Below the pieces are notes generated by a model. It did no database searches and was not told where the DNA came from. It saw nothing but the letters and a program-made list of their open reading frames with translations. Made by a program: the position numbers and the translations under genes. Below are positions 30,097 to 62,285 of a DNA stretch of 64,000 nt, one piece after another (the stretch's first letter is position 1; every line of letters starts with the position of its first letter). The stretch comes from a virus, in the IMG/VR virus record IMGVR_UViG_3300046171_000231, positions 62,001-126,000 of that record, one strand, 5' to 3'.

Positions 30097-30104
30097 TATT
30101 TATT
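30097..30104 (-). promoter_or_regulatory. T4-type late promoter box
   Basis: The minus strand reads AATAAATA followed by ACTCAGCAG. It precedes the leader of the structural gene starting at 30052. Confidence 0.6.
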
Positions 30105-30475
30105 CAAGTAGCGTTATTCCTTCTCGGACGATACTGAAATAAGTCTGTTGGTGGATCTGGTTCCATCCATTCTCTAATCTTTTGGTATTTCTCATATGAG
30201 AAAAACTCTTGATTTAAGTACCACTCTTCCCAAGGTTGATGTCCTTTACTATGATTACAGCTAGAACAACAACAGACTACATTTTTTGTAAAGTCTGTTC
30301 CACCCTTTGATCTGGGAACAACGTGATCCATTGTCAAATTATTACCATCACCACAATAAGCACATCTAAAGTGCCATTTCTCTTTTACGTCTTTCCTCCA
30401 TAATCTTTTTGCTTCTGCTGAACTTGTTGTCTGTAAGTTGAAAACATACGCTTTAGAAGAATGGAGAATGCTCAT
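30104..30475 (-). CDS. HNH endonuclease
   Basis: A 123-residue protein. Zinc-binding pairs C38-x2-C41 ('FRCAYCGDG') and C70-x2-C73 ('CCSSCN') flank the HNH core 'MDHVVPRSKGG' (Asp50-His51) and 'TKNVV'. This is the usual size and layout of free-standing phage HNH nucleases, which act as homing endonucleases or DNA-nicking enzymes. It lies directly downstream of psbD, a common site for homing nucleases in cyanophages. No intron is seen in either photosystem gene. Confidence 0.85.
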   Translation of the reverse strand: MSILHSSKAYVFNLQTTSSAEAKRLWRKDVKEKWHFRCAYCGDGNNLTMDHVVPRSKGGTDFTKNVVCCCSSCNHSKGHQPWEEWYLNQEFFSYEKYQKIREWMEPDPPTDLFQYRPRRNNAT

Positions 30476-31718: not shown

Positions 31719-32808
31719 TTAACCAATTGCAGGTGCTGTTAAAGCAACTGTTGTAGACTCAGCAGATGCTAGGTCTAATGGGAAGTTGTGTGCATTTCTT
31801 TCGTGCATTACTTCCATTCCTAAGTTTGCTCTGTTTAAAACATCGCCCCATGTTGGTACAATTTTACCATTAGCGTCTACTACAGACTGGTTGAAGTTGA
31901 AACCGTTTAGGTTGAATGCCATTGTACAGATACCCATTGAGGTTAACCATACACAGACTACTGGGAATACAGCAAGGAAGAAGTGTAAACTTCTTGAGTT
32001 GTTGAATGAAGCATACTGGAAGATAAGTCTACCGAAAGTAACCGTGTGCTGCCACGATATTATATGTTTCTTCTTCTTGTCCGAACTTATAGCCGTAGTT
32101 TTGACTTTCTGTTTCTGTAGTTTCTCTAATTAAAGAAGATGTAACTAAGCTACCGTGCATTGCACTGAAAAGACTACCACCGAACATACCTGCAACACCA
32201 GCCATATGGAATGGGTGCATTAGTATATTGTGCTCTGCTTGGAACACGAACATAAAGTTGAACGTACCTGAGATACCTAGTGGCATTCCGTCTGAGAAAG
32301 AACCCTGTCCGAAAGGATACACTAAGAATACTGCAAATGCTGCAGATACAGGTGCTGAATATGCTACACATATCCAAGGTCTCATACCTAATCTGTATGA
32401 TAGTTCCCACTGTCTGCCCATGTAAGCAGAGATTCCGATTAGGAAGTGGAAAATAACTAACTGGTAAGGACCACCGTTATATAACCATTCGTCTACTGTT
32501 GCTGCTTCCCAGATTGGGTAGAAGTGTAGACCGATAGCGTTTGATGAAGGAACAACTGCACCAGAGATGATGTTGTTACCATACAAGAAAGAACCCGCTA
32601 CTGGTTCTCTGATTCCGTCGATATCGACTGGAGGTGCTGCAATGAATGCAACGATGAAACATGCTGCTGCTGCGAGTAAGCATGGAATCATTAGGACACC
32701 AAACCAACCAACGTAGATTCTGTTGTTTGTTGATGTTACCCATTCGCAGAACTGTGGCCAGCCTGCTAGTAGACCTTGCTGTCTACCTTGTTTTGAAAGA
32801 GTTGTCAT
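31719..32808 (-). CDS. psbA: Photosystem II D1 protein (one frameshift)
   Basis: Reconstructed 362-residue D1; host D1 is 358-360. It starts [20 protein letters not shown]. Tyr161 and Asp170 lie in '[18 protein letters not shown]', the His215 region is '[20 protein letters not shown]', and the Mn-binding C-terminus is '[17 protein letters not shown]'. At 32035-32037 an AAA run (plus strand) holds one extra base, breaking '[19 protein letters not shown]'. The residues on both sides are universally conserved, so an indel error is likely. No group I intron is present. A long structured leader and two late promoter boxes precede it. Function: replacement of photodamaged D1 during infection. Confidence 0.97.
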
Positions 32809-32984
32809 TAGTAAGACGTTTGTAAATAGGGCAACAGGGAAGTTGCGATATTTATTTCCAGTAATCCCTCACTACTGGATAGAAAGACGAAGTATTATAC
32901 TGCCTATAGGTCTTGGTTTGAGAGCAGTTTGTAGTCAGGGTTACGATTGTTTCGAGTCCTTTCTAATGGTGAGGAAACCCTCAC
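32809..32984 (-). ncRNA. Structured 5' leader of psbA (PhotoRC-like candidate)
   Basis: About 176 bases between the late promoter and the ATG. A hairpin GTGAGG-GTTT-CCTCAC (32969-32984) would be at the extreme 5' end of the RNA. Then comes a 27-base block (32936-32962) shared with the porin leader, a 5-bp ACTGC/GCAGT stem, and a hairpin CCAGTA/TACTGG (32858-32878). Its loop repeats the GTGAGGG heptamer, so CCTCAC could pair with either copy. RNA motifs named PhotoRC-I and PhotoRC-II are known ahead of psbA in marine cyanobacteria and phages; I cannot test the match here. Confidence 0.6.
32849..32856 (-). promoter_or_regulatory. Second late promoter box close to psbA
   Basis: The minus strand reads AATAAATA, about 40 bases before the psbA ATG and downstream of the structured leader. 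It would give a short, unstructured transcript. Confidence 0.4.
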
Positions 32985-32989
32985 TTCTT

Positions 32990-32997
32990 TATTTATA
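32990..32997 (-). promoter_or_regulatory. Late promoter of psbA (perfect TATAAATA)
   Basis: TATAAATA on the minus strand, with the expected start site about 6 bases downstream, exactly at the first base of the 5' hairpin. Confidence 0.65.
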
Positions 32998-54180: not shown

Positions 54181-54540
54181 TTAGAAAACGAACTTAACAC
54201 CTGCTTTAGCAGAGAAGTCAACATCGTCACTAGGAGTTGTTACACCAGAGATTTCTCCGTAGAACTTATCATAAGAACCACCAAGGTATCCAATGAATTC
54301 TACATCACCGAACTCATCAGAAGTTTCTGTATGAGTTACTGTTGGACCACCAGAAACGTACCAACCGATTCCTGACTCTGTTGCTCCCTCATATCCAACT
54401 ACTGCTTCAAGACCACCAGATGTATATGCTCCATCAGGATATGATCCACTTGCTTCCAAATTAACGTATGGACCAGCAAAGGCTGCACCTGCGAATAGGA
54501 AAGGGGTTGCTGCTACTGCAGCGATTGTTGATTTAATCAT
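54181..54540 (-). CDS. Porin-like outer membrane protein
   Basis: 119 residues. Signal peptide MIKSTIAAVAATPFLFAGAA, probably cut after 'GAAFA'. The mature part alternates hydrophobic and polar residues in short beta strands ('YVNLEASGSYPDGAYTSGGL', 'GWYVSGGPTVTHTE', 'FSAKAGVKFVF') and ends in Phe, as outer-membrane beta-barrels do. At about 100 mature residues it would form a small barrel. It has its own late promoter, a structured leader and a strong terminator, implying high independent expression. Confidence 0.75.
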   Translation of the reverse strand: MIKSTIAAVAATPFLFAGAAFAGPYVNLEASGSYPDGAYTSGGLEAVVGYEGATESGIGWYVSGGPTVTHTETSDEFGDVEFIGYLGGSYDKFYGEISGVTTPSDDVDFSAKAGVKFVF

Positions 54541-54652
54541 TTTTGTTTATAGTATCTCGCTAGGCATTAAAAAACCTGCGGATGGAAATTCTTTCGACTA
54601 GAATTTTACATTCTACGCAGGGTTACGATCTTTCGAGTCCTTTGTTCTATGT
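54541..54652 (-). ncRNA. Structured 5' leader of the porin-like gene
   Basis: About 112 bases between the late promoter and the ATG. Near its 5' end is the 26-base block (54618-54643) also found in the psbA leader. Stem CCTGCG/CGCAGG (54616-54621 with 54575-54580) encloses a 6-bp hairpin TAGAAT/ATTCTA (54599-54615) and is followed by TTTTTT, resembling a terminator inside the leader. This layout suggests attenuation. Confidence 0.55.
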
Positions 54653-54657
54653 AATGG

Positions 54658-54665
54658 TATTTATT
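54658..54665 (-). promoter_or_regulatory. T4-type late promoter box
   Basis: The minus strand reads AATAAATA about 118 bases before the porin-like ATG. The shared leader block starts roughly nine bases after the predicted start site. Confidence 0.6.
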
Positions 54666-60081: not shown

Positions 60082-60582
60082 TCAAACCATAGACATTGCA
60101 AGTTGCAATTCTCTTGCGTGTTTCAATTCATCCTCTGCTATCTCTGCAATTTTTGTATCCTCTGGATGATATGCAGAGTATTTCACATAAGTTTCATATG
60201 CATGTTTCTCAATCTTCATATTGATATCGTACGCATCTACTGGACTAGCGAAGTAGTAAGCAACCATAATCCAATAGTAAAGAAGAACCAAGTGTTTAGC
60301 GAAGAATCTATCGATCCAATACTCATTACCTCCACGAGTTTCCATCTCTTCCAAGTGTTCTGTTTCATTTAATGCCTGATAGAAGTGTTCTTTCATCAAG
60401 TATATATGATCCTCTCCTCGAAGTCCAAGACTTTCACGGAAATGTAATACACTGATAAATGAGAAGTATGGTGCCCTTGCAATTACTTCAAGAACCCAGA
60501 ATCTTTGGAAGTCTCTACCTCGATAGAGAAAATCCAAGATGTAGATTGTAAGGTCTAAAACCGATGTGTTAAATTTTTTCAT
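60082..60582 (-). CDS. ptoX: Plastoquinol terminal oxidase
   Basis: 166 residues from the ATG at 60582 (MKKFNTSVLDLTIYILDFLY), which overlaps the upstream stop (ATGA). It has the di-iron carboxylate set of PTOX/AOX: Glu32 in 'LEVIARAPYFSF', Glu73-x2-His76 in 'NETEHLEEM', Glu125/His127 in 'IEKHAYETY' and Glu152-x2-His155 in 'DELKHARELQ'. It oxidises plastoquinol with O2 and relieves over-reduction of the photosynthetic chain, complementing the phage psbA/psbD/hli. Confidence 0.92.
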   Translation of the reverse strand: MKKFNTSVLDLTIYILDFLYRGRDFQRFWVLEVIARAPYFSFISVLHFRESLGLRGEDHIYLMKEHFYQALNETEHLEEMETRGGNEYWIDRFFAKHLVLLYYWIMVAYYFASPVDAYDINMKIEKHAYETYVKYSAYHPEDTKIAEIAEDELKHARELQLAMSMV

Positions 60583-60683
60583 ACAAGTATGGGGTGTGCC
60601 CAAGCATAGTTTGGATAGAACCATAGTGCGGTTCCAATAGTCGCAAAAATTACTAACGTTGCTCTTATAGGTAGATTTTTCAT
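60579..60683 (-). CDS. 34-residue membrane peptide ahead of PTOX
   Basis: MKNLPIRATLVIFATIGTAL then 'WFYPNYAWAHPILV'. One transmembrane helix. ATGA overlaps at both ends put it in the same operon as ptoX. It could be an accessory subunit or membrane anchor, but no function is known. Confidence 0.55.
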   Translation of the reverse strand: MKNLPIRATLVIFATIGTALWFYPNYAWAHPILV

Positions 60684-60841
60684 TTTATCTCCGTAATTTT
60701 ATTCAAAGAAAAAGGATGCTCGTGTAGATACGGAACATCCTCTCTTGCGTGTTTTACTGCTTCAAAAGCGTCTGTGGCATATTCGCCTATTTCGTGATAC
60801 TCATTTAGCTGGTCGTGCCAACCAAGTGTGTAGTGGGACAT
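60680..60841 (-). CDS. 53-residue small soluble protein
   Basis: MSHYTLGWHDQLNEYHEIGE to 'FSLNKITEIK'. Acidic and His-rich. The stop overlaps the next start (ATGA), and a ribosome site (CTGGAG) precedes it. First gene of the ptoX operon. Similar small proteins recur in cyanophages; function unknown. Confidence 0.6.
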   Translation of the reverse strand: MSHYTLGWHDQLNEYHEIGEYATDAFEAVKHAREDVPYLHEHPFSLNKITEIK

Positions 60842-60922
60842 GATAGTTTCAACTCCAGTACGTTATTATTTAGTATAGCAACTAGGTATAAATACGCATT
60901 GATGTGTGGACTCCCACACCTA

Positions 60923-61730: not shown

Positions 61731-62285
61731 CTAACAGTTTTTATTTAAGTCTTCTGCCATACCACCACCTATTTCTGCACCTTGATTACCACTAAACATT
61801 GTTACCCAACCAGCAGCAACCCAACCAATAATGGGAATATTAGCAACGCTAGGAGCAACACTAGCACCAACGCTGGAACCCACGAGTCTTCCTGTGTTTT
61901 CTGCTCCTCCGATTGCTTTGATGCAAGCTTCTGATTTTTTATTTCCTTCTGTGACTGTGATTGGTTTATTGTGTACTGCACCGTCCATCGTGTATTGCTC
62001 AACGACTTTAACTTTGTTGTTAGCCAATCCAAGAAAGCCACCCTTCGTATTGCTATCCCTTTCCACACGCATCACTTTTGGATCGTTTGCTTTATAACTT
62101 ATCTTATATCCATTATGTCCAACTTCTGCTTCATATGATGTATAAGGACCAACTGGTAAGTTGATACTTGGTAATTTACTTTGACGATTTGATAAAGAAC
62201 CTATCATACCAATGTGAGATAATCCAATAAGTCCACCTAATCCCAAGGCGAACCATCTACCCCATTTCACTTCTTTCTTTTCCAT
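61731..62285 (-). CDS. Membrane-anchored protein with Gly-rich end
   Basis: 184 residues. Basic N-terminus and one helix ('GRWFALGLGGLIGLSHIGMI'), a soluble beta-rich middle ('YTSYEAEVGHNGYKISYKAN'), and a Gly/Ala-rich hydrophobic C-terminal region ('GASVAPSVANIPIIGWVAAG') that may insert in membranes. The start overlaps the upstream stop (TAATG). No family recognised. Confidence 0.6.
   Translation of the reverse strand: MEKKEVKWGRWFALGLGGLIGLSHIGMIGSLSNRQSKLPSINLPVGPYTSYEAEVGHNGYKISYKANDPKVMRVERDSNTKGGFLGLANNKVKVVEQYTMDGAVHNKPITVTEGNKKSEACIKAIGGAENTGRLVGSSVGASVAPSVANIPIIGWVAAGWVTMFSGNQGAEIGGGMAEDLNKNC

Follow-up and report, generated by a model that had tools for sequence, protein, structure and literature searches.

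The 64,000-nt stretch of DNA analysed here (hereafter the window) comprises positions 62,001 to 126,000 of the IMG/VR virus record IMGVR_UViG_3300046171_000231, an ocean cyanophage. The three leaders discussed below, with the genes that follow them, lie on its minus strand. The psbA gene for D1 (31719..32808) is interrupted by a frameshift near position 32030. A second gene (54181..54540), which a preliminary description of this DNA called porin-like, matches the families Phage_OMP (PF24653), phrog_417 and T4-GC241/PhCOG173 and is called OMP below. This gene, also listed as DUF680/PhCOG173, has proposed links to phosphate limitation and mutates when phage S-TIM4 adapts to Synechococcus WH8102 (PMC6224464). 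A third gene (60680..60841) encodes a 53-aa homologue of T4-GC224 (phrog_8866), and the gene for a plastoquinol terminal oxidase (PTOX) resides downstream of it (60082..60624; AOX PF01786, 2e-10; phrog_4235, 1e-91).

The psbA and OMP leaders contain nearly identical blocks of 26-27 bases, which read AAAGGACTCGAAA-CA-ATCGTAACCCTG at 32936-32962 (psbA) and AAAGGACTCGAAA-G-ATCGTAACCCTG at 54618-54643 (OMP), with the central spot of one or two bases as the sole difference. This likeness had already been reported in the preliminary description; its positions are confirmed, and it does not arise by chance. No match with three or fewer mismatches arises in 100 dinucleotide shuffles of the window, and just two near-exact copies, those in the psbA and OMP leaders, are present in the whole 235,761-nt record. 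The claim that there is no third copy stands for nearly identical sequence, but it does not extend to structure, as a structure-preserving copy is located at 60826-60864 (minus strand).

Compensatory base changes establish, at the level of sequence comparison, that the shared block is the core of an RNA stem-loop, here termed P0, whose nature becomes evident from variant leaders. In P0, the outer helix is separated by a small internal loop from a GG(N)/CC helix, which is followed by an asymmetric internal loop of 2-3 nt, a YGA/UCR helix and an apical loop with the sequence AANNA or AANA in the copies detected. The spot at which the two blocks differ lies in this apical loop. Among relatives of the psbA leader, the outer helix exhibits the compensatory sets UAG/CUA, UAC/GUA and UGC/GCA. 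In alignment A3, 18 cells with double changes were counted versus 7.1 after shuffling (0/500 shuffles reach 18; controls with slid pairing are lower), and in alignment A4, which spans all three gene contexts, 46 were counted versus 23.5 (0/500; slid controls at most 16), where alignments A3-A5 consist of hand-picked diverse sequences and the structures were chosen on the same sequences. For OMP copies alone, outer-helix covariation is little above that of shuffles, and the proof by covariation comes mainly from the psbA and GC224 copies.

Two covariance models were used, of which R1 excludes any GC224 sequence and R2 covers all three contexts. R1 assigns 53.4 bits to the psbA site (32929..32967) and 51.9 bits to the OMP site (54611..54648), the latter also being supported by covariation on A3 and A4 and by the predicted fold. 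The R2 scores are 45.1 (psbA), 42.4 (OMP) and 41.7 bits (GC224), which are not independent values since the window sites sat in the training set of this model; the next-best site reaches 11.9 bits. No family was matched by P0 itself in Rfam scans, and our literature search found no description of either P0 or the OMP leader RNA. A long-range CUCG/CGAG pairing between the block and the leader end was considered and dropped, because the block variants GGGATCG and GGCCCG break it.

The third P0 (60826..60864) was detected as a 10.5-bit match of R1 and by a structural scan, and the predicted fold agrees with it. This copy encloses both the Shine-Dalgarno sequence (GGAG, 60853-60856) and the start codon (60839-60841) of GC224. 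Relative to the other copies, GC224-type P0 carries a U-A in place of C-G at the inner pair (CG in 13 sequences and UA in 11); at the third position, GGG/CCC changes to GGA/UCC. Outside the window, R1 found P0 ahead of other genes in P-SSM2 (weakly, E 0.26) and in another IMG/VR record, G009 (E 2e-6). The P-SSM2 copy lies at the start of T4-GC224, with petE downstream. Independent R2 matches include the GC224 genes of P-RSM4, P-SSM7 and P-SSM3. In P-RSM4, the GC224 start region and P0 are overlapped on the opposite strand by an annotated tRNA-Met. In G009, a block-like P0 directly precedes a short ORF that resembles the signal peptide of plastocyanin but lacks the mature protein, and a similar 34-aa ORF occurs between GC224 and PTOX in the window (60579-60683).

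At least 282 unique copies of GC224-type P0 were found in collection scans. The GC224 ORF reads from all 269 copies with enough downstream sequence among the matches listed (257 by pattern, 12 by eye). Among the listed copies with at least 1200 nt downstream (196), 52 are followed by petE and 52 by PTOX (7 by both), and 99, about half, by neither within 1.7 kb. A search for the petE-associated motif yielded 79 of 120 loci among the matches listed that carry GGGAUUGAAANNAUC-AUG-CCCC or GGAGUUGAAANNAUC-AUG-UCCC behind late boxes (at two of these loci a block-like form instead); these petE-selected loci provide the fairer test of GGG/CCC versus GGA/UCC pairing, as the collection scans fixed those letters. 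Because the GC224 gene of P-RSM1 has an ordinary ribosome-binding site and lacks P0, the hairpin is not a by-product of GC224 coding.

In the psbA leader, P0 is positioned between a 5' hairpin (GUGAGG/CCUCAC, 32969..32984, seen in the sequence and in the predicted fold) and a PhotoRC-II RNA (RF01717, 32844..32943; cmscan 62.8 bits, gathering threshold 39), a known element that the preliminary description had overlooked. The last 8 nt of the block, at its 3' end, fall within the PhotoRC-II model, and P0 is located 5' of the model. An extra hairpin downstream of PhotoRC-II (32809-32860, minus strand), outside the Rfam model, seems to covary, with GCAAC/GUUGC and GCAUC/GAUGC stems in relatives and CCCU in its loop. 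Within psbA itself, the frameshift corresponds to one extra T in GGTTACTTTCGG (32029-32033, minus strand; HGYF|GR). A similar frameshift is present in psbD between 30767 and 31047, and both are likely sequencing or assembly errors. An ORF judged by eye to be HNH-type endonuclease-like (30104-30475, minus strand) adjoins psbD.

Covariation and predicted folding indicate that the OMP leader is itself a structured RNA, new to description, composed of P0, a GUCG-loop hairpin and a U-loop hairpin, and these three elements recur in the predicted fold of the window leader. Across 184 leaders, the GUCG-loop hairpin (P2, 54586..54606) takes 91 different stem sequences and its GUCG never varies; the stems were counted around this anchor, as the register of the MAFFT alignment shifts between leaders. 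The U-loop hairpin (H2, 54558..54580; CGCAGG-U6-...-CCUAGCG) pairs CGCAG with CUGCG, exhibits the compensatory sets UGCUG/CAGCA, UGCGG/CCGCA and CGUAG/UUACG, and yields 13 double-change cells versus 2.6 after shuffling (0/500). In a set of 191 unique OMP leaders, 162 belong to the P0 type and 22 have another 5' hairpin containing CUCAAnUACU; both types carry P2 and H2. In the remaining 7 neither is found by pattern; at least one of these carries a variant form of P0, and two seem unrelated. No Rfam match was obtained for the OMP leader, and PhotoRC-II is absent from OMP and GC224 leaders at relaxed thresholds, with one match per genome, at psbA, in the records checked. A small upstream ORF in the linker (AUG-UAA) was discarded as a candidate since it is not conserved across leaders. 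In S-SCSM1 and P-SSM2, a second OMP-like gene precedes pstS, and its upstream region is devoid of P0 and of the OMP leader RNA.

The preliminary description had proposed that the OMP leader carries a terminator-like element. Its parts are indeed present (CCTGCG at 54616-54621, CGCAGG at 54575-54580 and six T at 54569-54574), and an RNA cut at the U-run folds into the CCTGCG/CGCAGG stem. However, this stem competes with P0 and H2, and in the full leader it has a pairing probability of 0.07 versus 0.92 for H2. Furthermore, the stem is broken without compensation in relatives (CCTTTG/CGCAAG and others), and other OMP leaders do not have its 5' half. CGCAGG covaries instead with a downstream CUUGCG, and the U-run forms the loop of the conserved H2, a loop that is U-rich in P0-type leaders. 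We therefore reject the terminator as a conserved fold of the OMP leader, on the basis of stem decay and H2 covariation, and regard an intrinsic terminator or attenuator at this site as highly improbable. Given the fold of the cut RNA, a transient role of the CCTGCG/CGCAGG stem in the nascent RNA is conceivable.

The block pattern is found in at least 120 IMG/VR contigs. At the loci examined, the genes downstream of P0 are OMP (212) and psbA (25), along with 2 chance matches, where the retrieval of OMP loci was biased to relatives of the window gene. Across all loci and genomes searched, block-type P0 always precedes OMP or, in a minority of phages, psbA. A covariance-model search of the kind proposed in the preliminary description recovered GC224 as a third target. 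Rather than being scattered at random sites, P0 occurs in whole phage genomes at psbA, OMP and GC224 only (with one record placing it at an ORF resembling a petE signal), and P0-bearing isolate genomes contain one to three sites each at these genes. Among PhotoRC-II leaders fetched independently of the block, 7 of 105 carry P0 (it is absent from about 93%). PhotoRC-II is present in 18 of 19 isolate or reference phage genomes, whereas P0 adjacent to psbA is seen only in P-HM1, P-HM2 and MED4-213 in addition to the window, and these three are Eurybiavirus phages, the only ones with it among the isolates tested. In P-HM2, P0 is present at all three genes.

A host origin of P0 was rejected, as the hairpin was not found in the host chromosomes searched. 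In bacterial and archaeal genomes, the block turned up twice: a Prochlorococcus SAG has it on a phage contig, and a MAG with the label Euryarchaeota has it on a single contig. When 121 host-family genomes were searched with the model, one further match only was obtained, which falls by chance inside dnaK. The MAG contig (PAZU01000056.1) carries a cyanophage OMP gene with a P0-type leader, and the Euryarchaeota-labelled bin probably contains a phage contig.

Each P0 of the window is preceded by a late promoter or promoter-like box. The NATAAATA box, described as the cyanophage late promoter (PMC2984593), is exact at psbA (TATAAATA, 32990..32997) and at OMP (AATAAATA, 54658..54665), as the preliminary description had seen. 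The GC224 leader has a late-promoter-like box (ACTAAATA, 60867..60874), whose assignment draws on its sequence and on box enrichment ahead of P0. With a slightly looser box pattern in relatives, the 60 nt ahead of P0 contain a late box in 137/210 OMP, 44/64 GC224 and 18/25 psbA leaders (65-72%) versus 4.7% of control positions. The spacing between box and P0 is tight, mostly 10-17 nt for OMP, 10-12 nt for GC224 and 29-34 nt for psbA. The distance from P0 to the start codon is about 100-120 nt in OMP and psbA.

These comparisons show that P0, as judged from its sequence, is a conserved RNA hairpin, found specifically on a small number of late phage messages, that behaves as a module independent of what else the leader contains. 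The same hairpin is mounted on unrelated leaders, namely the PhotoRC-II RNA, the GUCG/U-loop RNA and a bare ribosome-binding site. The proposal that two unrelated genes share one RNA element holds in that psbA and OMP both carry P0 behind late promoters, but a further target, GC224-PTOX, had been missed. The occurrence of P0 on three unlinked late messages suggests joint control of host-helper genes via one RNA signal. Specifically, P0 would act in cis near the 5' end of the late mRNAs for psbA, OMP and GC224-PTOX/petE, and one trans-acting factor, from phage or host, would determine how well these messages are translated or how long they persist late in infection. At GC224, binding or folding of P0 could block or gate initiation directly because the hairpin holds the ribosome-binding site and the start codon. 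At OMP and psbA, P0 would be a 5' module joined to other structured leader RNA, where effects via stability or neighbouring RNA domains are also conceivable, and because the start codons are about 100-120 nt away, one repression mechanism is not obvious for all three messages. We infer the recognition factor, its action, the direction of regulation and the co-regulation of these messages. Two of the three targets, psbA and PTOX or petE, serve photosynthetic electron flow. Against a shared operator stand OMP, which is not a photosynthesis protein, the small share of PhotoRC-II leaders (7 of 105) that include P0, the scant outer-helix covariation among OMP copies alone, and the listed GC224 copies, about half of the long ones, that have neither petE nor PTOX nearby.

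Because P0 is 5'-proximal and far from the OMP and psbA start codons, we lean only somewhat towards a common operator for one trans-acting factor, and we leave a smaller but real chance to a pure stability element, that is, a 5'-terminal hairpin that protects the mRNA from rapid 5'-end-dependent decay through the host degradosome and needs no dedicated binding protein. The latter reading gains from the short distance between late box and P0 (10-17 nt at OMP and GC224, 29-34 nt at psbA) and from other OMP and psbA leaders that have unrelated 5' hairpins at the same place. For infection by cyanophage P-SSP7, a published study reports a rise in host RNase E and a shielding of the phage transcripts through antisense RNA (PMC9692554). 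However, the internal loop, the loop sequence and the YGA/UCR pairs are kept across three genes, none of which a pure stability hairpin needs to have fixed; moreover, the psbA 5' end is already capped by the GUGAGG hairpin, and the GC224 start codon lies inside the stem.

P0 could alternatively be a nascent-RNA signal to RNA polymerase on late transcripts, through put-like antitermination or pausing. Its 5'-proximal position directly behind late promoters would suit such a signal, as would the OMP U-run downstream of a stem able to form before the H2 arm is made, and GC224 exhibits a weak fold likeness to the RNA polymerase inhibitor T7 Gp2 (Foldseek E 0.36). That match is not significant, though, and the terminator-like stem is unconserved, being absent from OMP leaders of types B and C, and no terminator was identified for psbA or GC224, which makes this reading very unlikely. 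Least credible, to the point of being barely tenable, is that shared ancestry alone accounts for the pattern, in which case the end of a leader of GC224 or OMP type would have been copied to a site upstream of psbA, where it lingers without function. The restriction of psbA P0 to a minority clade (three Eurybiavirus phages among the isolates tested) is compatible with such copying, but the psbA copies differ by compensatory changes and have thus been kept as structure.

Returning to the common operator, a narrower version casts a dedicated RNA-binding protein of the phage as the regulator, perhaps GC224 itself in an autogenous role; by recognising P0, it would control D1, PTOX or plastocyanin, and OMP together late in infection. 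We consider this version unlikely, and the role of GC224 as regulator is speculation. GC224 is predicted to fold into a 53-residue beta-beta-alpha-alpha-beta structure (pLDDT 95), for which the structure search returned no significant match; T7 Gp2 and small ribosomal proteins are among the nearest entries (E above 0.07). The idea of GC224 as a known RNA binder was set aside, given no Pfam match, no PDB sequence relative and no significant fold match. Through psbA, PTOX and petE, cyanophages alter the photosynthesis of the ocean cyanobacteria that they infect, and to our knowledge little is established about how a phage coordinates these genes post-transcriptionally. If the narrower version is true, the P0 messages would form a post-transcriptional regulon of auxiliary metabolic genes. 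One hairpin on three late messages offers a testable handle, for which nature supplies many variants with compensatory changes. For one phage clade, the findings also add a part to the known layout of the psbA leader with PhotoRC-II, and they provide OMP, a gene that is common but unexplained, with a new structured RNA in its leader.

Several known systems resemble P0 in part. PhotoRC-II (RF01717; Weinberg et al. 2010, PMC2864571) is a structured leader of cyanophage psbA, of which the window leader is a member, whereas P0 also occurs at OMP and GC224, where PhotoRC-II is lacking. The manA and wcaG RNA motifs (PMC2864571) are likewise structured RNAs of T4-like cyanophages and occupy the leaders of metabolic genes derived from hosts, although these families differ from P0. 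The gp43 and RegA operators of T4 and RB69 (PMC3014915) are RNA sites near the start codons of several T4-like phage mRNAs, and this geometry is found at GC224, where the Shine-Dalgarno sequence and AUG are inside the hairpin, but not at OMP or psbA. For gp43, the operator is a hairpin with a UAAC-type loop, situated ahead of the ribosome-binding site (PMC3014915), whereas P0 has AANNA or AANA in the loop and resides on late messages. Finally, RNA-level control of psbA has been proposed for CfrI of S-PM2 (PMC2984593), which is an antisense RNA, whereas P0 is a hairpin of the 5' leader.
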